Shown here one piece after another: positions 6,725 to 27,214 of a stretch of DNA of 64,000 nucleotides; position 1 is the first letter of the stretch, and every line of letters begins with the position of its first letter. The DNA is taken from positions 7,686,501 to 7,750,500 of the forward strand of contig NZ_CP108442.1 of NCBI RefSeq assembly GCF_041435355.1, written 5' to 3'. Both the position numbers and the translations under genes were made by a program. The DNA comes from Streptomyces sp. NBC_01276 (lineage in GTDB: Bacteria; Actinomycetota; Actinomycetes; Streptomycetales; Streptomycetaceae). The notes under the pieces are model-generated. The model searched no databases and was not told the DNA's origin. It saw nothing but the letters and a program-made list of their open reading frames with translations.

Positions 6725-7939
6725 CTACCGGAGCCGGGTGACCGGCAGCTCCCGCAGGGCGCGGAACCTGAAGGTGCTGTGCCAGCGGAGCCGGTCCGGC
6801 GGGCAGGCCGCCCGCAGGCCGGGGAACCGGTCCACGATCGCCCCCAGGGCCAGCGTGAGCTGCAGCCGGGCCAGGGGCGCCCCCAGGCAGTAGTGCATGC
6901 CCTGTCCGAGGGCGAGGTGGGCCTTGTCGGCGCGGTCGATGTCGAAGCGGTCCGGGTCCGGGTAGCGGTCCGGGTCGCGATGGGCGGAGGCCAGGGCGAA
7001 CAGCACGGTGTCCCCGGCCGGGATCCGTACGCCGCCGATCTCCACCGGCTCCGTGGGGAACCGGCGGATCGCCGTCTGGTTGGGGCTCGTGTACCGCAGG
7101 AGTTCCTCGACCGCGTCCGCCGTGCGCGCGGGTTCGGCCCGCAGGCGGGCCGCCTGCTCGGGGTGGTCGAGGAGGGCGAGCACACCGGCGCTGATGACGT
7201 GCTGGACGTTCTCGCTGCCCGCCCCCAGGATCAGGAAGGCGAGCGAGACGAGCTCCTCCTCGGTGAGCCGGTCCCCCTCGTCGCGGGCCGTGATCAGGTC
7301 CGAAAGCAGGTCGTCGCCGGGTCGGGCGCGCCGCACGGCCACGAGGTCGACCAGGAAGCGGTGGACCTCGCCGATGGACCGGACCAGGTCCTCGCCGGAG
7401 GCAGGGGTGAGCATCGCGGAGATCCAGCCGGAGAACCGTTCCCGGTCGTCGGACGGGACGTCGAGCAGGGCGCCGATGACCCGCAGCGGCAGCGGCCGGG
7501 CGAACTCCGCGACCAGGTCGGCCTCGCCGCCGCCGTCGAGCCGCGCGGCGAGGTGCGCGGTCCGCTCCTCGACGGCGTCCCGGACGGCGTCGCGCAGCCG
7601 GTCCACGTGCCGGGGGGTGAAGCCGTGGGCCACCAGCCGGCGCAGGCGCAGGTGGTCCTCGGGTCCGACGTTCAGCAGGTTGCTGTCGAGCGCCGGCGGC
7701 AGGGAGAAACCGCTGAAGCCCGTGGCCGAGTGCCTCTTGTCCACCGAGAGGCGCTGGTCGGACAGCCCGGCGCGGACGTCCGCCTCGCGGACCACCAGCC
7801 ACACCGCGGAGCCGTCGGGCAGCGCCACCCGGTGCACCGGTCCGGCGGCGCGCAGGGCCGCGTAGACGGCGTGGGGGTCGTGTGCGAAGGGTTCTCCGAA
7901 CGGCTGCGGCAGGGTGACGTCTTGCGATATCCGCGTCAT
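6725..7939 (-). CDS. Cytochrome P450
   Basis: 404 residues, standard for soluble bacterial class I P450s. The I-helix segment is LGAGSENVQ, in which Asn replaces the usual acid-alcohol Thr position of AGxxT. The ExxR of the K-helix is in EELLRYT. The haem loop is ALGQGMHYCLGAPLAR, with the axial Cys near residue 350. It would need ferredoxin and reductase partners, none of which is adjacent. The ATG has AAGGA upstream. An atypical I-helix Thr position is known in some biosynthetic P450s that use substrate-assisted proton delivery. The substrate is unknown. Confidence 0.93.
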   Translation of the reverse strand: MTRISQDVTLPQPFGEPFAHDPHAVYAALRAAGPVHRVALPDGSAVWLVVREADVRAGLSDQRLSVDKRHSATGFSGFSLPPALDSNLLNVGPEDHLRLRRLVAHGFTPRHVDRLRDAVRDAVEERTAHLAARLDGGGEADLVAEFARPLPLRVIGALLDVPSDDRERFSGWISAMLTPASGEDLVRSIGEVHRFLVDLVAVRRARPGDDLLSDLITARDEGDRLTEEELVSLAFLILGAGSENVQHVISAGVLALLDHPEQAARLRAEPARTADAVEELLRYTSPNQTAIRRFPTEPVEIGGVRIPAGDTVLFALASAHRDPDRYPDPDRFDIDRADKAHLALGQGMHYCLGAPLARLQLTLALGAIVDRFPGLRAACPPDRLRWHSTFRFRALRELPVTRLR

Positions 7940-8103
7940 GCGCGTTCCTTACGTGCCCGGGGCGGCCGGCCGCGGCCGCCGGTCGGCGCCGCGGTCCGGA
8001 TGATCATCTCCATCATCGTCGACGACGCATCCTCTCGACCGTCTCCCGCGGGGCGGGCGAGGAGCGACGGCCCGCCGGACGGCCGCCCGGCTACGCTGGC
8101 GCC

Positions 8104-9084
8104 GTGGCCAGCGCGGGAGTGAGTCGTCGACGGGTGATGGGCGCCGGGTGCGGCGCGGTCGCGGCGGCGCTGGCCGGATGCTCCGGGGCGTCCGTCCCGG
8201 CACGGCGGCTGCGGTTCGCCACCGGACCCGAGGGCGGCCCGTACAACGCGTTCGGGCAGGCCCTGGCCCGGGCGGTCGCCGCGTACGGCGACCGCGGGGG
8301 CGGCCCGCCGGTCCTCCCCGTGACCACCGCGGCGAGCGTGGACAACCTGCGGCGACTGGACGAGGGCACCGTCGATCTGGCCCTCGCGATGGCCGACGCG
8401 GCCGAGGACGCCGTCCTCGGCCACGAGCCGTTCTCCCGGCCCGTCACCGGCGTGACGGCGCTGGCCCGGGTCTACGTGAACTACACGCACCTGCTGGTAC
8501 CGGCGGACGGCCCCGTGCGCGAGGCCGGAGCCCTCGCGGGCCGGCCGGTCGCGACCGGCGCCGCCGGGTCGGGGGTGCAGGTGGTGGCGGGCCGGATCCT
8601 GCGGGCCGCCGGTCCGGGCGCGGCCGCCGCGGCACCGCTCGAACGTCCCCTGGGCCTGGCCGAGTCCGTGCGCGCCCTGCGCGGCGGCGAGGTCGACGCG
8701 CTGTTCTGGTCCGGCGGCGTACCCACACCCGCCCTGACCGGGCTGGCACACGAACTGCCGCTCCGCTTCCTGCCGTTGGACGCCCATGTGGGGCCGCTCC
8801 GGGAACGCTACGGTCCCGTCTACACCGCCGTCACCCTTCCGGCCGGCGTGTACGGGCTCACGGAGCCGGTGGGCACCATCGGGGTCGGAAACTACCTCCT
8901 GGCCCGCGACGACGTACCGCGCGACACCGTCGAGGCCCTGCTGCGCGTGGTGTTCGACCGGTGGCGGGACCTGCTGCGCGAGGTCACCGCCGGGGTACGG
9001 CTGGAGCCCCGGTTCGCGATCTCGACGGGCAGGGTGCCGCTCCACCCGGGCGCCGTCGCCTACTACCGGTCGGTGTACGGCTGA
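8104..9084 (+). CDS. TAXI-family solute receptor lipoprotein (TRAP-type)
   Basis: 326 residues. A signal peptide with a twin-Arg start (SRRRVMGAGCGAVAAALAGC) ends in lipobox LAGC, so it is an exported lipoprotein. The mature part begins LRFATGPEGGPYNAFGQALA, the hallmark first strand and ligand loop of TAXI receptors. DLALAMADAAEDA and WSGGVPTPALTGLA are further family blocks. Such receptors normally feed a TRAP 4TM/12TM permease, but none is present here. The GTG start is six bases after TACGCT (8092-8097), so it is probably leaderless. It is convergent with the histidine kinase gene and may act as an extracellular sensor partner for it. Confidence 0.85.
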   Translation: MASAGVSRRRVMGAGCGAVAAALAGCSGASVPARRLRFATGPEGGPYNAFGQALARAVAAYGDRGGGPPVLPVTTAASVDNLRRLDEGTVDLALAMADAAEDAVLGHEPFSRPVTGVTALARVYVNYTHLLVPADGPVREAGALAGRPVATGAAGSGVQVVAGRILRAAGPGAAAAAPLERPLGLAESVRALRGGEVDALFWSGGVPTPALTGLAHELPLRFLPLDAHVGPLRERYGPVYTAVTLPAGVYGLTEPVGTIGVGNYLLARDDVPRDTVEALLRVVFDRWRDLLREVTAGVRLEPRFAISTGRVPLHPGAVAYYRSVYG

Positions 9085-9088
9085 CCGC

Positions 9089-10483
9089 TCACGGGGGCGG
9101 CAGCCGGAGCTCGACGGCCAGGCCGCGCGGCTCGTTCGCGCCGGCCGTCAGCCGGCCGCCGCTGGTGCGGGCGAGCTCATCGGCGATGGCCAGCCCCAAC
9201 CCGCTGCCCCGCACGTTCTGGTGCTCCGGTGAACGCGTGAAGCGGCGGAGCAGCGAGGGAAGCTGGTCCGGCGCCACGCCGGGGCCGTCGTCGGCGACGC
9301 GCACGACGGCGTCCCCCGCGGCGGCCTGCCGGACGCTCACCTCGACGCGTCCGCCGCCGGGCACGAACTTCACGGCGTTGTCGAGGAGGGCGTCCAGTAC
9401 CCGGCCCACCGTGTCCGGCAGGGCCCGCACCCCCAGGGTGTCCGGGAGGCCGTGCGCGGTCAGCTCCAGTCCGGCGTCGCGGAACACCGGATGCCAGGCC
9501 GCCACCCGGTCCCGTACCGCACGCGCGGCGTCCTGGTCGCGCAGCTCCGCCGTGCCGGACTCCACCCGGGCCAGGGCCAGCAGTCCGTCGAGCAGCTCCT
9601 CCAGGCGTTCCGCCTCGTCCAGGGCGCGCGCGTGCTCGGTGCGGCCGGGTCCGGGGGCGATGTACGGCTCGACGTTCTCCATCTGCAGTACCAGCGTGGC
9701 CAGGGGGTTGCGCAGCTGGTGGGAGGCGTCGGCGACGAAGTCGCGCTGGCGGCCGAGGGAATCGGCCAGGGCCTGCGCCATCGTGTTGAAGTGCCGCCTC
9801 AGGTGACGCAGTTCGGGCGGCCCGGTGTCGGACACCGCCCGGGCCTGGAGGCGGCCCGCGGTCAGCCTCCCCACCGCCCGGTCGAGATCGCGGACCGGGC
9901 GCAGCAGCCAGCGCGCGATCCCGACCGCGACCAGGGCGGCCGCGGCGAAGGCGGCGAACGCCCCCACCGCGATGAGGGACCAGCGGACCGTCACGTCCCG
10001 GCGGGCCGCTCCGGTGGGCAGGGTCATCAGCACGGCCCCGCTCACCCGCTCGTCGCGGCCCACCGGCTCGGCCACCACCACGGTCGCGGGCCCCCAGGGG
10101 CGGACGGCCGGCAGCCGGTCGGTGGACCGGCCGGTGAGCGCGCGGGCCAGGGCGTCCGCCGCCGGTGAGGGCGCCCGGCCCGCACCACCCTCCGGGGGAG
10201 CGGCCGTACCGGCCCGCGCGACCGTCCCGCCGGCCGTGTCGACCACGGCCACCGAAGCCCCGTAGAGCTGCGCGTACCGCTCGATCTCGTCGGACAGTTC
10301 GCGGCGGTCGGCCGCGGTGCGCATCCGTTCGGCGAGATCCGCGAACCGTACGGCCTCCGAGCGGCGTTGCAGCAGCAGGTGTTCGGTCCGCCCGCGCGCG
10401 TAGGCGTCGGCGAGGGGCAGGCAGAGCAACAGGGTGGCCGCGCCCATGAGCACCAGCAGCACGGCGAGGAGCCGACGCCTCAC
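9089..10483 (-). CDS. Sensor histidine kinase (HAMP-HisKA-HATPase)
   Basis: 464 residues. TM1 is at about residues 5-24, an extracytoplasmic sensor runs to about 165, and TM2 lies near 170-190. HAMP is followed by the HisKA box DASHQLRNPLATL, the N box DNAVKFVPGGGRV, the G1 box ADDGPGVA and the G2 box GSGLGLAIADEL. It autophosphorylates the His and passes phosphate to the regulator encoded just upstream. The GTG start overlaps the regulator stop by four bases (GTGA at 10480-10483), so the pair is translationally coupled. The sensor is of TctE-like size. Its signal may be the ligand of the neighbouring TAXI receptor, by context only. Confidence 0.9.
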   Translation of the reverse strand: MRRRLLAVLLVLMGAATLLLCLPLADAYARGRTEHLLLQRRSEAVRFADLAERMRTAADRRELSDEIERYAQLYGASVAVVDTAGGTVARAGTAAPPEGGAGRAPSPAADALARALTGRSTDRLPAVRPWGPATVVVAEPVGRDERVSGAVLMTLPTGAARRDVTVRWSLIAVGAFAAFAAAALVAVGIARWLLRPVRDLDRAVGRLTAGRLQARAVSDTGPPELRHLRRHFNTMAQALADSLGRQRDFVADASHQLRNPLATLVLQMENVEPYIAPGPGRTEHARALDEAERLEELLDGLLALARVESGTAELRDQDAARAVRDRVAAWHPVFRDAGLELTAHGLPDTLGVRALPDTVGRVLDALLDNAVKFVPGGGRVEVSVRQAAAGDAVVRVADDGPGVAPDQLPSLLRRFTRSPEHQNVRGSGLGLAIADELARTSGGRLTAGANEPRGLAVELRLPPP

Positions 10484-11277
10484 CGGGCGCGGTCCGCCCC
10501 GCCGTGGGCTCCGTCGTCGGCCGTGTCGTGGGCCCCGTCGTCCGCCGGGCCCCACGCCCCGTCCCGCGGGCCGCCGTCGCCGGTGGCGGGGCGGCCGAGC
10601 CGGTACCCGTACCCGCGGACGGTGCGCACCAGACCGGAGCGGCCGGTCTTGGCGCGGATGCCCGCCACGTGGACGTCCAGGGAGCGGGAGGCGCCGAGGA
10701 AGGCGTCCCCCCAGATCCGGTCCATGATCTCCTCGCGGGAGTGCACCTCGTCCGGGCGTGCGGCCAGGAAGGCCAGCACGTCGAACTCGCGCCGGGTGAG
10801 CCGGACTTCGGCTCCCGCCACCGTCACCGTCCGGCCCGCCGGATCCACCTCGACGTCCCCGGCGCGCACGGGACGGTGGCGGTGGTCGCCGTGCCCGGCG
10901 TCGGCGTCCCGGAGGCCGGTGCGCCGGTCCGTACGGCGGCGCACGGTGTCGACGCGCGCCATCAGCTCGGCCATCCGGAACGGCTTGACGACGTAGTCGT
11001 CGGCGCCGGCCCGCAGGCCCTGCACGATGTCGCGTTCCTCGCAGCGCGCGGTCACCACGATCAGCGGGGCGTCGCAGACGGTGCGCAGCCGCCGCAGCAG
11101 TTCGAGCCCGTCCAGGTCGGGCAGGCCGAGGTCGAGCAGGACGAACTCGGCCTCGCGCAGGTGCAGCAGGGCGTCCAGGGCCCGGCCGACCCGGCGGACG
11201 GTGTGGCCGCGCTGGGTGAGGGCGGTGCCGAGGGCCTGGGCCATCCGGTCGTCGTCCTCGACGAGAAGCGCGTGCAT
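10480..11277 (-). CDS. OmpR/PhoB-family response regulator
   Basis: 265 residues. The receiver domain (1 to about 120) has the acidic pocket VEDDD, phosphoacceptor Asp in LLDLGLPDLDG, TA of VVTARC and Lys of VVKPF. The winged-helix domain (about 145-245) contains LTRREFDVLAFLAARPDEV and the recognition region SRSLDVHVAGIRAK. The C-terminal tail is Gly/Asp/Ala-rich and dispensable-looking. It is first in an operon with the kinase at 9089. The MHS permease at 11362-12786, transcribed toward it, is a plausible target along with the TAXI gene. Confidence 0.92.
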   Translation of the reverse strand: MHALLVEDDDRMAQALGTALTQRGHTVRRVGRALDALLHLREAEFVLLDLGLPDLDGLELLRRLRTVCDAPLIVVTARCEERDIVQGLRAGADDYVVKPFRMAELMARVDTVRRRTDRRTGLRDADAGHGDHRHRPVRAGDVEVDPAGRTVTVAGAEVRLTRREFDVLAFLAARPDEVHSREEIMDRIWGDAFLGASRSLDVHVAGIRAKTGRSGLVRTVRGYGYRLGRPATGDGGPRDGAWGPADDGAHDTADDGAHGGADRAR

Positions 11278-21169: not shown

Positions 21170-21199
21170 TTGACGGATGGTCTGGACCAACTTTACGTT
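21170..21199 (+). promoter_or_regulatory. Chitinase promoter with DasR-type (dre) site
   Basis: TTGACG (21170-21175) and TACGTT (21194-21199), 18 bp apart, form a promoter. Between them is TGGTCTGGACCA (21178-21189), one base from the DasR-responsive consensus TGGTCTAGACCA found at Streptomyces chitinase and GlcNAc-uptake genes. Repression relieved by glucosamine phosphate, with chitin induction, is the expected control. The rest of the 392-bp gap (20995-21386) shows no gene. Confidence 0.8.
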
Positions 21200-21386
21200 G
21201 TGGCGCACCGGGCCGCGCACGCCGCCGCCGGGCCCCATCCCGTCGGCGACCGCCCTCGCGGCCCGCTCCGCACCCCGGCCCGCTCCGTACCCCGGCCCGC
21301 CCCGCTCCTCCCCCCACTCAGCCCCCGTCCTCCCGCCCCGGGCGCCCCCGGGCACCCGCGCGGAAGCGGCACGAAGGGAGCACTCC

Positions 21387-22451
21387 ATGATCCGCCGGAC
21401 CATCCGCCTGCTCGGCGCGGGACTCGCGGCCGCGCTCCTCGCGCAGTTACCCGCCGCCGCGGCGGCACCGCCACCCGCCGCGCCCGCCGCGGCCGACACC
21501 TGCCCGGTGAAGCCCAGGCCCGCGGGCAAGGTCCTCCAGGGCTACTGGGAGAACTGGGACGGCTCGGCCAACGGCGTCCACCCGCCCCTGGGCTGGATAC
21601 CGATCACCGACGCCCGCATCCGCGCCCACGGCTACAACGTCGTCAACGCGGCCTTCCCGGTCATCCGTTCCGACGGCACCGTGCTGTGGGAGGACGGCAT
21701 GGACAGCACCGTGAAGGTGCCGACCCCCGCCGAGATGTGCCAGGCCAAACAGGACGGCCTCACCGTGCTGATGTCCATCGGCGGCGCGGCGGCCGGCATC
21801 GACCTCGGCTCCGGTGCCGTCGCGGACCGGTTCGTGGCGACGATCGTGCCCATCCTGCAGAGGTACAACTTCGACGGCATCGACATCGACATCGAGACCG
21901 GCCTCGTCGGCTCCGGCTCCATCACCCAGCCGTCCGCGTCGCAGGCCAACCTGATCCGCATCATCGACGGCGTTCTGGCCCGGATGCCGGCCGGCTTCGG
22001 CCTGACGATGGCCCCCGAGACGGCCTACGTCACCGGCGGCAGCGTGGCCTACGGCTCGATCTGGGGCGCGTACCTCCCGATCGTCAAGAAGTACGCGGAC
22101 AACGGCCGGCTGTGGTGGCTGAACATGCAGTACTACAACGGCAGCATGTACGGCTGCTCCGGGGATTCCTACTCCGCGGGAACCGTCGCCGGCTTCAGGG
22201 CGCAGACGGACTGTCTCGACCGCGGTCTGGTCGTCCAGAACACCACCGTCAAGGTGCCGTACGACAAGCAGGTGCCGGGGCTGCCGGCCCAGCCGGGCGC
22301 GGGCGGCGGCTACATGTCGCCGAGCCTGGTCTCCCAGGCGTGGAACCCCTACGGCGGCCGGCTCAAGGGACTGATGACCTGGTCGCTCAACTGGGACGGA
22401 TCCAGGAACTGGACCTTCGGCGACAACGTCCGGGCGCTGCAGGGCCGTTGA
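21387..22451 (+). CDS. Secreted GH18 chitinase
   Basis: 354 residues. A Sec signal peptide (IRRTIRLLGAGLAAALLAQL, Ala-rich cleavage region) is followed by a single GH18 barrel. The catalytic motif is FDGIDIDIE (DxxDxDxE, Glu as general acid) and the SxGG strand is VLMSIGGAA. QYYNGSMYG and GLMTWSLNWDG are late GH18 blocks. It hydrolyses chitin outside the cell. There is no carbohydrate-binding module, so it resembles small ChiC/ChiD-type catalytic-domain enzymes. The start is the ATG at 21387 with AAGGGAG, about 190 bp downstream of the promoter with the DasR-like site. Confidence 0.95.
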   Translation: MIRRTIRLLGAGLAAALLAQLPAAAAAPPPAAPAAADTCPVKPRPAGKVLQGYWENWDGSANGVHPPLGWIPITDARIRAHGYNVVNAAFPVIRSDGTVLWEDGMDSTVKVPTPAEMCQAKQDGLTVLMSIGGAAAGIDLGSGAVADRFVATIVPILQRYNFDGIDIDIETGLVGSGSITQPSASQANLIRIIDGVLARMPAGFGLTMAPETAYVTGGSVAYGSIWGAYLPIVKKYADNGRLWWLNMQYYNGSMYGCSGDSYSAGTVAGFRAQTDCLDRGLVVQNTTVKVPYDKQVPGLPAQPGAGGGYMSPSLVSQAWNPYGGRLKGLMTWSLNWDGSRNWTFGDNVRALQGR

Positions 22452-22523
22452 CGGCGTGCCCCCTGGGCGTGACATGTGGCCGAGGGGGCCTCCCTTGTTG
22501 GAGAGTTGCACTATCTTACTTCC

Positions 22524-25019
22524 GTGGAGCAGCTGATCGCCGAAGATCCGGCGCGCATCGGTCCGTACCGTCTGATCGCCCGGCTGGGCGCGGGCGGGAT
22601 GGGCCTGGTCTACCTCGGGCGTTCCGAAGCCGGACGCACCGTCGCGGTCAAGGTCGTGCAGGCCGAGTACGCCGGGCACCCGGAGTTCCGCCGGCGTTTC
22701 GCCCGCGAGGTGGCGGCGGCGCGCAGGGTGGGCGGAAGCTGGACGGCGGCGGTCCTCGACGCCGATCCCGAGGCCGCCGTGCCCTGGGTCGCGACGCAGT
22801 ACGTGCCGGGACCCGACCTGCACACGGTGGTCGCCAGGGACTTCGGGCCGCTGCCCGAACACTCGGTCCACGTGCTCGCCAACCGGCTCGCCCTCGCCCT
22901 CGGGGCCGTGCACGGGGCGGGCCTGATCCACCGCGATCTGAAGCCGTCCAACGTCCTCGTCACCGTCGACGGCCCCCGCGTCATCGACTTCGGCATCGCC
23001 CGCGCGATGGACAGCCTGGGCGGGGACAGCCTGCACACGCGCACCGGCATGCTGATCGGATCTCCGGGCTTCATGTCGCCGGAACAGGTCCGCGGTCTCG
23101 CGCTCACCCCCGCCAGCGACGTCTTCTGCCTGGGCGCCGTCCTCGTCTACGCCGCCACCGGCCGGTTCCTGTTCGGCGCCAGGGACGCCGGCCTCAACGT
23201 CCACCTCTTCCGGGTGGCCGAGGAGGAGGCGGACCTGGCCGGCGTACCGCCACCGCTGGCCGAACTCGTCGGCGCCTGCCTGGACAAGGACCCGGCCCGG
23301 CGGCCCACCCCGGCGGAGGTGGCCGCCCACACGGCGACGGACCCGGCGGCGGAGTGGCTGCCGGGCCCGGTGCTGGCCCAACTCGGGCGCCATGCCGCCC
23401 GGTTGCTGGACTACGCCCCCGCGCAGCGCGCCGGGACACTGGCCCCGGCCGCCGAGACCGCCCCGGCCGCCCCGGCCGTCACCCCCGTCGCACCGCCGCC
23501 CGTGCCCGACCCGCGGGCGCGGTCCCCGCACGCACCTCCCGCGTACGCCCCGACCCTCCCGGTCCCGGCCGGTCCCCCGCCCGGATTCGGTCCGGCCCCG
23601 GGCCCGGTCGGCGTCCCGGCGCAGGGCGTGCCCGCCGCCACCGCCCAGGACCAGCCGCCCCCGCCCGCCGGACGGCGCCGGAGCCTCGTGGTGGCCGCCA
23701 TGGCGCAGCTGGTGGTGGTGCTCGACGGAGCGGTCTTCCGGTCGGCCCGGGCCGACCTGGGCCTCTCCTCCGACGGCCTGTACGTGCTCTTCTGCGTCTA
23801 CCTCCTCGCCTTCGGGGGGCTGCTCCCGCTCAGCGGACGCGTCGTGGACCTCGTGGGCCGCAGACGGGTCATGCTCGTAGCCCTGGCCGGGTTCGCCACG
23901 GCGGCCGTGCTCGGCGGCCTGACCAGTGTCCCGGCCGTGCTGATCTGTTCCGCCGCCCTGCAGGGCGGCGCCGCGGCGTTCCTGCTGCCGGCCGCCCTCG
24001 CCCTGGTGGTCGCGGGCTCCACCGAGCCGAACGCGCGCCGCCGGGCCCTCGGGATCTACGCCGCGGTCGCCGGCAGCGGTTCCGCCCTCGGGGTACTGCT
24101 GGTGGGAGTGCTCGTCGAGGACGTGTCGCGGCGTTGGTCCCCGTTCGCGGGCGCGCTCTTCGCCGTGATCGCGGCCGTCACCGCGCTCGGCCTGCCGGCG
24201 GACCGTCCGGGCCGCCCCGGGACCCGACTCGACGTGCCGGGCGCGCTGCTCGGGGCCGGCGGCCTCGGCGGTCTCACTTTCGGCTTCGGCGAACTGAGCC
24301 GCCGCCATGGGTTCGTGCCCCCCGTCACGGCCTCCCTCGTGCTCGGCGTCATCCTGCTCGCGGCCTTCCTGAGGCGGCAGACACGGAGGCCGGAGCCCCT
24401 CCTGCCGCCGTACCTCTTCGGGGCTCCGGGCCGCACCGGCTGCCTCGTGACCTCGGTCCTGGCCGGCGCGGGCCTCCTCGTCATCGTCCCGGTGTTCGAG
24501 GCCGTCCTGGGCCCCTACCTCGGCTACCGGCCGGAGATGGTCGGGGTCCTCCTCCTCCCGCTGGCCGCCGCCGTCGCCCTCGGCTCCACGCAGGTCTCCG
24601 CCCGCCTCCTGGACCGCGTCGCGCCCCGCGTGCTGATCGTCGGCGGTCTGCTGACCACGACCCTCGGTCTGCTCCTCTTCACCAGGGCGAGCGACGCGGG
24701 GTACGCCGGCTGGGTGCTGCCGGGCATGCTCCTCGCCGGCGGCGGCGCCGGCGTGGCCCTCGTGCCGGTTCTCGCCGTCATGACCGAGGCCGTCCCCGAG
24801 GGGCACTCCGGTGCGGCCTCGGCGGCACTCGCCGCGGCTCAGCACACGGGCGTCTCCCTCGGCACCGTGCTGCTCGGCGGCCTCGTCCACGTCGACGACC
24901 AGGTGCTCGCCTTCCCCTTCACCATCTGGTGGGCGTGCGGATTCCTGCTGCTGGCGGCCCTCGTCGCCGGGTTGACGATCAAGGTCAAGGCGCCCGGGGG
25001 AGCGCAGGTCCGCCCCTGA
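22524..25019 (+). CDS. Ser/Thr protein kinase fused to MFS-type (DHA2-like) membrane domain
   Basis: 831 residues. Residues 1 to about 275 are an intact Hanks-type kinase: P-loop LGAGGMGLVY, Lys43 in AVKVV, catalytic HRDLKPSNVLV, metal-binding IDFGIAR, and activation segment TRTGMLIGSPGFMSPEQ. A roughly 110-residue Pro/Ala-rich linker follows. Residues from about 385 to the end form a 12-14-helix MFS domain like EmrB/QacA exporters, including a motif A-like GRVVDLVGRRR. The motif C region (GSGSALGVLLVG) lacks the usual GP...GG. Most streptomycete kinases carry a single TM and an outer sensor, so this fusion is unusual. The reading frame is continuous. The GTG at 22524 is six bases after TATCTT (22512-22517). 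Transport and substrate are unproven; the membrane half may instead be a receptor. Confidence 0.88.
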   Translation: MEQLIAEDPARIGPYRLIARLGAGGMGLVYLGRSEAGRTVAVKVVQAEYAGHPEFRRRFAREVAAARRVGGSWTAAVLDADPEAAVPWVATQYVPGPDLHTVVARDFGPLPEHSVHVLANRLALALGAVHGAGLIHRDLKPSNVLVTVDGPRVIDFGIARAMDSLGGDSLHTRTGMLIGSPGFMSPEQVRGLALTPASDVFCLGAVLVYAATGRFLFGARDAGLNVHLFRVAEEEADLAGVPPPLAELVGACLDKDPARRPTPAEVAAHTATDPAAEWLPGPVLAQLGRHAARLLDYAPAQRAGTLAPAAETAPAAPAVTPVAPPPVPDPRARSPHAPPAYAPTLPVPAGPPPGFGPAPGPVGVPAQGVPAATAQDQPPPPAGRRRSLVVAAMAQLVVVLDGAVFRSARADLGLSSDGLYVLFCVYLLAFGGLLPLSGRVVDLVGRRRVMLVALAGFATAAVLGGLTSVPAVLICSAALQGGAAAFLLPAALALVVAGSTEPNARRRALGIYAAVAGSGSALGVLLVGVLVEDVSRRWSPFAGALFAVIAAVTALGLPADRPGRPGTRLDVPGALLGAGGLGGLTFGFGELSRRHGFVPPVTASLVLGVILLAAFLRRQTRRPEPLLPPYLFGAPGRTGCLVTSVLAGAGLLVIVPVFEAVLGPYLGYRPEMVGVLLLPLAAAVALGSTQVSARLLDRVAPRVLIVGGLLTTTLGLLLFTRASDAGYAGWVLPGMLLAGGGAGVALVPVLAVMTEAVPEGHSGAASAALAAAQHTGVSLGTVLLGGLVHVDDQVLAFPFTIWWACGFLLLAALVAGLTIKVKAPGGAQVRP

Positions 25020-25035
25020 CCCGCGGGGAGCGCGG

Positions 25036-25692
25036 TCAGCCGACGCCGTAGCGGGCCGCGATGCCTGCCAGAACCAGTTCCAGGCCTTCCTCGAAGCCCT
25101 CGTCGTAGTCCTGGAAGAGGTCGGCGCCGGCGGTCGCGGCGAGCGGGTAGTCGGCCAGCCGGGCGGCGCGTTCGTCGATGTCGTAGCCCTCCCGGCGCTG
25201 ACCCGGCAGGGGTTCCACGCCCTGTTCCTCGGTGACGAAGCCCAGGGTGAAGAAGTAGGCCGTGGAGGTGGCGCGGACCGCCTGGGGGAGGGCGAAGCCG
25301 GCGTCGACGAGGGCGCGCAGGTTCGCCTCCATCTGGGCCGCGTGCTCGGTGCCCGTGAAGCGGGAACCGCTGAAGACCTTCGCGCCGTCGCGGTACCCCA
25401 GCAGGGCCGCGCGCAGGCTCCGGTTGCCCTCCAGGAGACGCTCCCGCCACGTGGCGCCGGGGGCGAGCCGCGCGTCGGCGTCCGCGGCCATCCGCCGGTA
25501 CATCTCCGTGGCCATCTCGTCGAGCAGCTCCTGCTTGCCCTTGAAGTGCCAGTACAGGGCGGGTGCCTGGACGTTCAGCTCCTTGGCGATGGCGCGCAGG
25601 GTGAGGCCGTCGAGGCCGGTCTCGTTGAGGAGCCGCAGCGCGGTCTCCACGACCTGCTTCTTGTCGAGTCTGGGAGCTTTCCGGGTCGTCAC
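25036..25692 (-). CDS. TetR-family repressor (tetracycline-repressor-like C-domain)
   Basis: 218 residues. The HTH GLTLRAIAKELNVQAPALYWHF, followed by KGKQELLDEM, and the C-terminal region with FFTLGFVTEEQG and LFQDYDEGFEEGLELVLAG match the TetR_C_1 class that includes tetracycline repressor. The start is the GTG ending at 25692: TAAGCT (complement of 25700-25705) lies seven bases before it, so it is probably leaderless, and this -10 overlaps operator 1. It is divergent from an FAD monooxygenase whose transcription it most likely controls in response to the monooxygenase substrate. Confidence 0.9.
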   Translation of the reverse strand: MTTRKAPRLDKKQVVETALRLLNETGLDGLTLRAIAKELNVQAPALYWHFKGKQELLDEMATEMYRRMAADADARLAPGATWRERLLEGNRSLRAALLGYRDGAKVFSGSRFTGTEHAAQMEANLRALVDAGFALPQAVRATSTAYFFTLGFVTEEQGVEPLPGQRREGYDIDERAARLADYPLAATAGADLFQDYDEGFEEGLELVLAGIAARYGVG

Positions 25693-25694
25693 GC

Positions 25695-25753
25695 TTGACA
25701 GCTTAACAGCGTTAAGGCAATGCTGTGCGGAGACGGAACTTAACAGCGTTAAG
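25695..25753. promoter_or_regulatory. Twin operators and divergent promoters (TetR/FAD monooxygenase)
   Basis: Two identical 15-mers CTTAACAGCGTTAAG lie at 25702-25716 and 25739-25753, 37 bp apart. Toward the monooxygenase, TTGACA (25695-25700) pairs with AATGCT (25719-25724) at 18-bp spacing, with operator 1 in the spacer; operator 2 runs into the ribosome-binding sequence. Toward the TetR gene the -10 TAAGCT overlaps operator 1. The arrangement predicts tight joint repression. Confidence 0.82.
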
Positions 25754-25762
25754 GAGAATGTC

Positions 25763-27214
25763 ATGCGCAAGGACGAATGCGACGTGCAGGATGTGCAGGA
25801 TGTAAAGGACGTACTGGTCATCGGCGCGGGTCCCACCGGCCTCGCCCTCGCCGTGGACCTCGCACGGCGCGGTGTGCGGGCCCTCGTCGTGGAACGGGCC
25901 GAGGGCCTCTTCCCCGGTTCGCGCGGCAAGGGCGTCCAGCCCCGTACCCGGGAGGTCTTCGACGATCTGGGCGTGGGGGAGGCCGTCGGCGCGGCCGGCG
26001 GTCCGTACCCGGTCGCGGTGATCTGGCAGGACGGCGTGCGCCAGGGCGAGCACCGGATGTTCGACGAGAGCGAGGAGACGGAGGACTCGCCGTACCGCGA
26101 GCCCTGGATGGTCCCGCAGTGGCGCACGCAGGAGATCCTCGCCGCCCGCCTCGCGGAACTGGGCGGTGAGGTCGCCTTCGGCCGCGAGCTGGTGGGCATC
26201 ACCCAGGACGCGCAGGGGGTGACGGCGCAGTTCGCCTCGGGCCCGCCGCTGCGCGCCCGCTACGCCGTCGCCGCCGACGGCGGCCGCTCCACCGTGCGGC
26301 GGGCGCTCGGCATCGGCATGGCCGGCGAGACCGTGGACCCGAACCCGGTCCTGGTCGCCGACGTCCGTGTCGACGGCCTCGACCGCGAGAACTGGCACGT
26401 CTTCCCGCCCGCCGCCGGCGAAGGCGGGTACCTCGCGCTCTGCCCGCTCGCCGGGACGCGGGACTTCCAGCTCACGGCCCAGTTCCCGGAAGGCGCGGAC
26501 ATCGACCTCTCCCTCGAGGGGATCCGGGCCGTCGTCGCCGCACGCTCGCACCTCGCCCCCGAAGCCGTGACGCAGGTGCGCTGGGCCTCGGACTTCCGGC
26601 CGCGCGCCGCACTGGCCGACTCCTTCCGGCAGGGGCGGATCTTCCTGGCCGGGGACGCCGCTCACGTCCACTCGCCCGCGGGCGGCCAGGGGCTCAACAC
26701 CAGCGTCCAGGACGCGTACAACCTGGGCTGGAAGCTCGGCGCGGTACTGGGCGGACGCGCGCCCGAGTCCCTCCTGGACACCTACGAGGAGGAACGGCGG
26801 CCCGTCGCCGCCGAGATGCTCGGCCTGTCCACCCGGATCCACCGGGGAGAGGCCCGGCGCGGTGCGGCCACGCGTCAACTGGGCCTGGGCTACCGGGAGT
26901 CCTCCCTCGCGGTGGAGACCCGTACGGACCTGCCCGAGGACGCGGTGCGCGCGGGCGACCGCGCGCCGGACGGCGAAGCGGGCGACGGCGGACGGCTCTT
27001 CGACGCGTTCCGGGGCCCGCACTGGACCCTGCTGGCCGTGGGCACCGCGCCGGGGGCCGCCCTGCCGGCGCTGCCCACCGTCCGCACGGTGCGGGCGCCG
27101 TCGCAGGCGGCGTACGGGGACGGCCTCTTCCTCGTCCGGCCCGACGGCTACGTCGGCTGGGCGGGCACCACGGCCGCGGGGGCCGCGCGGTACGCGGTCC
27201 GGACCGGCCTGTAG
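25763..27214 (+). CDS. FAD-dependent aromatic monooxygenase (PHBH/TetX-like)
   Basis: 483 residues. The FAD-binding GxGxxG is VLVIGAGPTGLALAVDLARR, the DG motif is AVAADGGRSTVRRALG, and the GD motif is IFLAGDAAHVHSPAGGQGLN. A C-terminal thioredoxin-like extension is typical of aromatic-polyketide hydroxylases and rifampin- or tetracycline-type monooxygenases. It would hydroxylate an aromatic or polyketide substrate with NAD(P)H and O2. The N-terminus has an odd repeat VQDVQDVKDV before the first strand. AAGGAG precedes the ATG at 25763. The divergent tetracycline-repressor-like regulator with twin operators suggests drug-inducible inactivation; a catabolic phenol hydroxylase is the alternative. 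Confidence 0.9.
   Translation: MRKDECDVQDVQDVKDVLVIGAGPTGLALAVDLARRGVRALVVERAEGLFPGSRGKGVQPRTREVFDDLGVGEAVGAAGGPYPVAVIWQDGVRQGEHRMFDESEETEDSPYREPWMVPQWRTQEILAARLAELGGEVAFGRELVGITQDAQGVTAQFASGPPLRARYAVAADGGRSTVRRALGIGMAGETVDPNPVLVADVRVDGLDRENWHVFPPAAGEGGYLALCPLAGTRDFQLTAQFPEGADIDLSLEGIRAVVAARSHLAPEAVTQVRWASDFRPRAALADSFRQGRIFLAGDAAHVHSPAGGQGLNTSVQDAYNLGWKLGAVLGGRAPESLLDTYEEERRPVAAEMLGLSTRIHRGEARRGAATRQLGLGYRESSLAVETRTDLPEDAVRAGDRAPDGEAGDGGRLFDAFRGPHWTLLAVGTAPGAALPALPTVRTVRAPSQAAYGDGLFLVRPDGYVGWAGTTAAGAARYAVRTGL

Follow-up and report, generated by a model that had tools for sequence, protein, structure and literature searches.

A Ser/Thr kinase-MFS fusion in Streptomyces as a candidate receptor kinase with a transporter-derived sensor

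Proteins that carry a transporter fold and a kinase in one polypeptide include CbrA and the SLC5/STAC histidine kinases, which are called transceptors in passages of PMC13022988 and PMC7096432. A table in PMC3924187 gives one Streptomyces coelicolor member, with the substrate "unknown", for the Sensor Kinase-MFS (major facilitator superfamily) Fusion family (SK-MFS, 2.A.1.34) of the Transporter Classification Database (TCDB). In addition, NCBI and UniRef name Streptomyces proteins either "bifunctional serine/threonine protein kinase/MFS transporter" or "MDR family MFS transporter". We analyzed a gene of this kind, encoding a Ser/Thr kinase joined to a DHA2-type MFS domain, in a 64,000-nucleotide stretch of Streptomyces sp. 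NBC_01276 (NZ_CP108442.1, positions 7,686,501 to 7,750,500 of the forward strand). This whole stretch is referred to below as the window, and its coordinates are used throughout.

Based on the passages of the two transceptor papers, CbrA appears to be the functionally nearest described protein that we found. It differs from the window protein in having an SLC5 rather than an MFS transporter, a histidine rather than a Ser/Thr kinase and a STAC domain rather than a Pro-rich linker, and CbrA transports. SLC5, STAC and histidine kinase domains were all absent among the seven Pfam families with E up to 0.1 in the fusion protein. The TCDB family shares the presence of a kinase and an MFS domain in one protein, a comparison made by table description only, and the passage of PMC3924187 leaves the kinase type (Ser/Thr or histidine) unstated. 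The Streptomyces proteins named by NCBI and UniRef have the same domains and belong to the same sequence family, their name being the sole functional assignment; the window copy lies in a divergent clade of 12. EfpA and QacA (8ufd, 8ufe, 7y58) share the fold of the MFS half but have no kinase, are 24% and 19% identical to it in the Foldseek alignment, and the fusion has partly lost residues that free relatives conserve. AfsK-type and other Streptomyces kinases with a C-terminal sensor part share the kinase module and a post-kinase segment, but have C-terminal parts of their own where the fusion has its MFS domain. AfsK carries a pyrroloquinoline quinone propeller.

Beyond the TCDB table line, our literature searches gave no paper on a Ser/Thr kinase-MFS fusion or its function, and no transceptor of this type built on a Hanks kinase; "facilitator" and "mfs" occurred 0 times each in PMC1262709 and in PMC2877116. 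An earlier reading of this DNA made from the letters alone (the sequence-only reading) had allowed that homologous fusions might already be characterized, which holds for their cataloguing by NCBI and TCDB and not, in our literature searches, for their function. The fusion itself is already catalogued; what is new is the pattern by which its MFS half has evolved.

Based on that pattern, we favor, on balance, the interpretation that the gene encodes a membrane receptor Ser/Thr kinase in which a domesticated DHA2/EfpA-like MFS transporter would serve as the sensor. We see about an even chance that the wider proposal is correct, namely that this is a Streptomyces receptor kinase family in which the outer MFS face is a fast-diversifying ligand site and the cytoplasmic face a conserved relay, and in which one branch has shed most of its C-terminal bundle (C-bundle). 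In such a receptor, the outer-facing cavity would bind a small molecule or lipid that arrives either from outside or out of the membrane, and the change on binding would be passed via the conserved cytoplasmic MFS face and the linker to the kinase. The kinase would autophosphorylate on Thr172/Thr174 of its activation loop, perhaps also on an AYxPT motif in the linker, and would then phosphorylate its targets. The window copy has probably lost vectorial drug:H+ antiport or retains it only weakly.

The sensor interpretation is favored because the fused MFS half shows fast, outward-facing divergence and because a natural truncated group exists. It is also favored because the key kinase residues are invariant, a linker motif is conserved, residues kept in free relatives are lost, the window protein has both a motif-B Arg to Ala change and a deletion in transmembrane helix 1 (TM1), and sister kinases show a like divergence in their C-terminal sensor parts. 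The sequence-only reading had raised the sensor role from the loss of motif C; it is the likelier role on the outward-facing divergence and the truncated group, not on the motif C Pro. The parts of the gene are as follows, with the basis of each in parentheses.

22524..25019, + strand: whole gene, kinase-linker-MFS fusion, 831 amino acids (aa), GTG start (open reading frame list, Pfam, family alignment)
22566..23333, + strand: Hanks Ser/Thr kinase domain, residues 15-270 (Pfam; closest solved kinases)
23352..23420, + strand: conserved post-kinase segment EWLPG...LAQLGRHAA..LLD..P, residues 277-299 (alignment)
23412..23672, + strand: Pro-rich linker, residues 297-383 (AlphaFold2 confidence)
23541..23555, + strand: short linker motif AYAPT, residues 340-344 (motif count)
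23673..24977, + strand: 14-helix DHA2-type MFS domain, residues 384-818 (Pfam, AlphaFold2, Foldseek)
23724..23726, + strand: TM1 Asp401, kept in the window protein (alignment)
23835..23867, + strand: MFS motif A GRVVDLVGRRR, residues 438-448, intact (alignment)
23952..23954, + strand: motif B position 477, Ala for Arg (alignment)
24072..24107, + strand: motif C region GSGSALGVLLVG, residues 517-528 (alignment)

The AlphaFold2 model of the protein (mean predicted local distance difference test score (pLDDT) 80.8, predicted template modeling score 0.62) contained a kinase fold, a linker and 14 membrane helices, the helix count being our own assignment on the model, in which the helices mostly had pLDDT >90. 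Foldseek analysis of the model gave EfpA as the best match (8ufd and 8x6x, then 8ufe; template modeling score to target 0.83-0.86), in agreement with the 12-14-helix DHA2-like domain that had been read from the sequence. EfpA and then QacA were also the closest solved transporters by sequence, and the NCBIfam model efflux_EmrB (TIGR00711) scored 93.9 bits, below its curated cut-off of 230.2.

The two halves of the fusion have diverged unequally. Mean identity among 121 proteins (7260 pairs) was 89% in the kinase and 53% in the MFS half. For the seven fusions of six genomes (21 pairs), the kinases were 80-91% and the fused MFS domains 34-59% identical, and a free DHA2 homologue (one gene) was 79-89% identical across the same six genomes. 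The C-terminal sensor parts of sister kinases diverged in a like manner (kinase 71-88%, last 130 aa 41-61%) in a control in which "sensor" meant the last 130 residues, 3/8 loci (L037, L044, L057) were dropped by pattern, and 6 of 10 pairs were usable, four being omitted because L025 is cut by its contig end.

This divergence had a direction across the membrane. With helix positions from the AlphaFold2 model and the N-terminus taken as cytoplasmic, the ratio of fused to free entropy (84 fused and 35 free proteins) rose along the helices from 0.93 in the inner third through 1.21 in the middle to 1.53 in the outer third; it stood at 0.87 for cytoplasmic and 1.48 for outer loops. In 14/14 helices the outer half showed the greater fused-minus-free difference (by only 0.02-0.03 in TM10 and TM12), and TM10-TM12 were throughout more conserved in the fusions than in the free proteins. 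Pairs matched for overall identity were drawn from 152 fused and 41 free proteins. In the 0.42-0.48 band (694 of the 4000 fused pairs sampled, and 124 free pairs), fused versus free identity was 0.51 versus 0.36 in the cytoplasmic loops, 0.27 versus 0.47 in the outer loops and 0.36 versus 0.46 in the outer TM thirds; three further bands agreed, the lowest holding just 19 free pairs. In these alignments, the fused MFS domains are conserved on the cytoplasmic side and diversified on the outer side, a pattern that their free relatives do not show.

One group of fusions has a shortened MFS half. As checked on the DNA, L017 and L018 both break off within the first C-bundle helix, and no MFS continuation was found downstream in the three forward frames. 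At the top of the list from a search with the truncated MFS part were 46 cluster representatives of 608-673 aa with a kinase and a shortened MFS domain (P0184-P0229, where P0184 is L017). Of these, 41 end in the alignment at residues 660-665 of the window protein, in that same helix, and the remaining five (P0198, P0206, P0211, P0212 and P0229) are of like length with last residues that are seemingly misaligned. The truncated members stop after about nine helices and retain the kinase, with mean identities over 1035 pairs of 92% in the kinase and 61% in the half-MFS. A model of one member, P0188, in which pLDDT averaged 61 and was mostly 73-96 in the membrane part but poor in the kinase, was used for the helix count only. 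A canonical MFS transporter needs both bundles, and the truncated branch therefore should not transport by the usual mechanism.

The kinase half, as the sequence-only reading held, has intact motifs. Its PF00069 match was 118.7 bits against a gathering cut-off of 31.7, and PknA and PknB were the closest solved kinases by sequence. The window kinase has catalytic residues Lys43, Glu62, Asp138, Asn143 and Asp155, plus Thr172 and Thr174, and these seven catalytic and activation-loop positions were invariant in 121/121 full-length rows (window included) and 46/46 truncated relatives. The AfsK equivalog NF053615 scored 284.8 bits, below its cut-off of 1300, with only its positions 1-337 of 809 covered, by residues 17-359 of an 847-aa form of the protein. 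The post-kinase segment was invariant or at least 90% conserved at 20/23 positions (121 sequences), and a similar segment occurs in kinases of other architecture, e.g., L020 and L021.

The Pro-rich linker that had been read from the sequence was predicted to be disordered, with pLDDT <50 at residues 294-376. It is variable in sequence apart from a recurring Y.PT motif, found in 129/149 full-length fusions, 43/45 truncated fusions and 4/54 other kinases (3 of 152, 1 of 46 and 26 of 80, respectively, were left unparsed, and a fixed 120-residue stretch was searched in the other kinases). In P0003, which is closest to the window protein, YAPA replaces the YAPT of AYAPT, and Thr344 is therefore not universal. 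AYAPT is a candidate autophosphorylation or docking site.

That the kinase-MFS fusion is real was supported at several levels. There were 831 codons without a stop in frame at 22524-25019 (+), in one uninterrupted frame as first read, and Pfam identified Pkinase (E 3.9e-34) and MFS_1 (E 1.2e-39) in the 847-aa frame that opens at a second in-frame GTG upstream, at 22476. We assigned the start to the GTG at 22524, the family start, because homologues begin M-x-Q-L. The GC content by codon position was alike in the kinase (0.79/0.52/0.92) and MFS (0.79/0.54/0.94) parts, and the MFS half is therefore coding. A homology search scored 7990 candidates, of which 4688 passed, and in all of the best 120 listed the kinase and MFS domains were both present. 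A frameshift artefact is unlikely because both domains are in one protein in all of these homologues. The fusion is not confined to this genome, and a stop or frameshift near codon 385, the other doubt raised at the outset, is unlikely given the same homologues. A sequencing error or chance fusion was rejected on the basis of these homologues together with a second genomic copy and the trees described below.

The second fusion in the same genome lies at C1:7406405-7408900 (L003, L109), about 300 kb from the window copy; the two share 86% identity over the kinase and only 46% over the MFS half. In a small sample of 61 genomes, for each of which up to 15 candidates were scored, the fusion was found in six, comprising 6/37 Streptomyces and 0/24 genomes outside the genus (E <= 1e-190). 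A scan of genome contigs with patterns in the kinase gave 79 loci, most of them kinase only; L015-L019 were used as fusions. The kinase tree placed 43 fused rows on one side of a branch, apart from 22 other kinases, with moderate support (Shimodaira-Hasegawa-like approximate likelihood ratio test 84, below the program's star); several rows were very long and drew a long-branch warning. In the MFS tree (47 fusions sampled from 154, plus 45 free proteins), 41 free rows formed one clade with support of 100. Four "free" rows (P0123, P0127, P0131 and P0134) were nested among the fusions; P0134 starts within the linker, which suggests that these four are 5'-shortened gene models. They were included in the residue counts below (n = 45) and dropped from the entropy and matched-identity comparisons. 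The simplest reading of the two trees is that they fit one fusion event.

Residues were counted in 154 fusions and in the 45 free relatives, which include the four doubtful rows. The TM1 Asp was found in 62/154 fusions versus 43/45 free relatives (with Glu in 41 further fusions), the TM1 Asn in 55/154 versus 42/45, and the TM6 Asn in 9/154 versus 41/45. The motif-B Arg of TM4 was present in 45/45 free relatives and 142/154 fusions, and is Ala477 in the window protein, which also has a 4-residue deletion, common to P0003, right after Asp401 at the outer end of TM1. The role of such residues in proton coupling is known from work on MdfA and QacA.

The sequence-only reading had pointed to a loss of transport from the degenerate motif C, and this claim survived in part. 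The motif C region is present without the Pro, and its closing Gly pair, found in 45/45 and 45/45 free relatives and in 116/154 and 131/154 fusions, is reduced to Val-Gly in the window protein. However, the Pro occurred in 0/45 free relatives at either of two candidate columns, where they have A 18, G 16 and S 11 at the first and L 37, F 4, V 3 and M 1 at the second, and it was found at the first column in 12/154 fusions. The missing Pro was rejected as proof of lost transport.

Several points weigh against the sensor interpretation. The Asp and Gly of the motif A D-x-x-G were found in 154/154 fusions (the Asp in only 39/46 of the truncated group), an acid (Asp or Glu) occupies the TM1 site in 103/154 fusions, and the TM1 Asp is present in the window protein and in 45/46 truncated members, all of which would be expected if some proton-coupled movement persists. 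In the closest DNA pair, L015/G019, the ratio of non-synonymous to synonymous substitution rates (dN/dS) was 0.07-0.13 for the kinase; the MFS half, at 0.14-0.35, is by this estimate under weaker but purifying selection. Changing substrates of a working pump would also give outer diversification. The circular-shift control on the polarity of divergence was moderate, with 10/421 shifts reaching the observed value, the alignment rows are related to each other, and the cytoplasmic N-terminus is an assumption. The comparison with a free transporter rests on one gene, the nearest in this genome and perhaps unusually conserved; the truncated group would bear on the family rather than on the window copy; and the window fusion shares 0 gene neighbours with the other 11 loci compared.

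The alternative that fares best against these data, which we regard as unlikely but, for full-length members, not negligible, is a working bifunctional transceptor, in which the MFS domain exports or imports a substrate and either the kinase gates transport or transport drives the kinase. The predicted 14-helix fold is intact and motif A and the TM1 Asp of the window protein are kept, but residues kept in free relatives, and in the window copy the motif-B Arg, have been lost. Similarly, the purifying selection on the MFS half in the closest pair is set against its faster divergence than that of the free DHA2 homologue and against the group without most of the C-bundle. A precedent is CbrA, described in a passage of PMC7096432 as combining histidine transport and a kinase in one polypeptide.

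We consider it improbable that the MFS part is a slowly decaying membrane anchor or scaffold, with the kinase doing the work. Divergence is not uniform, and uniform decay would not be expected to spare the cytoplasmic side, where conservation equals or exceeds that of free transporters. In addition, the closest pair has dN/dS <1, and the GC content by codon position is intact. An anchor would be consistent with the fast MFS divergence, the truncations and the very divergent members G002, G003, G004 and L019, and also with the NG86 dN/dS values of deeper pairs, which are 0.58-1.17 for the MFS half where the kinase gives 0.09-0.21, although these pairs are saturated (one YN00 value, for L016/G019, was 0.09) and dN/dS is trusted for L015/G019 only.

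The window copy is, judged by its alignment, a divergent paralogue, one that also lacks the motif-B Arg, and its clade of 12 (7/12 rows named S. lavendulae) lies beside the common copy. That it is redundant and heading for loss while the copy at C1:7406405-7408900 does the job is very improbable, despite the two copies in this genome and two changes common to the window copy and its nearest relative (loss of the motif-B Arg and of four TM1 residues), since the clade holds mean identities of 97% in the kinase and 83% in the MFS half and the frame, codon-position GC and an upstream element are kept.

The upstream element was identified by eye in a comparison of 12 loci.

22498..22517, + strand: upstream element TTGGAGAGTTGCACTATCTT (by-eye comparison of 12 loci)

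TATCTT occupies 22512-22517, ending 6 nucleotides 5' of the GTG, an arrangement like that of a leaderless -10 box. The element was similar in the window, G019, L015, L016 and G012, in all five of which TATCTT stands 6 or 7 bases before the GTG; it was partial in G000b and G002 and not evident by eye in L017, L018, L019, G003 and G004. In G012 (L095) the element reads GATAGTTGAACTATC, in which two 7-base arms are mutual reverse complements by eye. It is a possible leaderless promoter or operator and would suit a leaderless transcript. A promoter and terminator scan of 22200-25400, using a simple sigma-70 scan, gave no match.

Gene neighbours were compared across the 12 loci with a crude self-made gene caller that found the fusion in 11 and missed it in L111. 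No conserved operon that might serve as a substrate clue was found across these loci; L015, L113 and L114 shared neighbours together, two other locus pairs shared one gene each, and the window shared none. By eye, and with no family scan, a frame upstream of the fusion in the window (21177-22451) resembles a GH18 chitinase, and downstream (about 25036-27214) a TetR-like regulator (-) lies beside a flavin adenine dinucleotide monooxygenase-like frame (+). In L091 (Kitasatospora phosalacinea), a kinase of the same broad group (frame 7305-9003) immediately precedes, on the same strand, a free DHA2-like MFS frame (8992-11263), and adjacency of this type could be how a fusion arises. P0265 (Cellulomonas sp. 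ATA003), of 993 aa, is listed with a flavin mononucleotide-dependent monooxygenase domain (PF00296) and MFS domains.

If the sensor interpretation is correct, Streptomyces would sense something at its membrane, plausibly drugs, lipids or secondary metabolites, through what was once a multidrug transporter and is now coupled to a Ser/Thr kinase. The natural series of full-length, very divergent and nine-helix members would then offer a system for studying the change from transporter to receptor. It would also be a caution that the automatic name "MDR family MFS transporter" may stand on proteins that do not transport.

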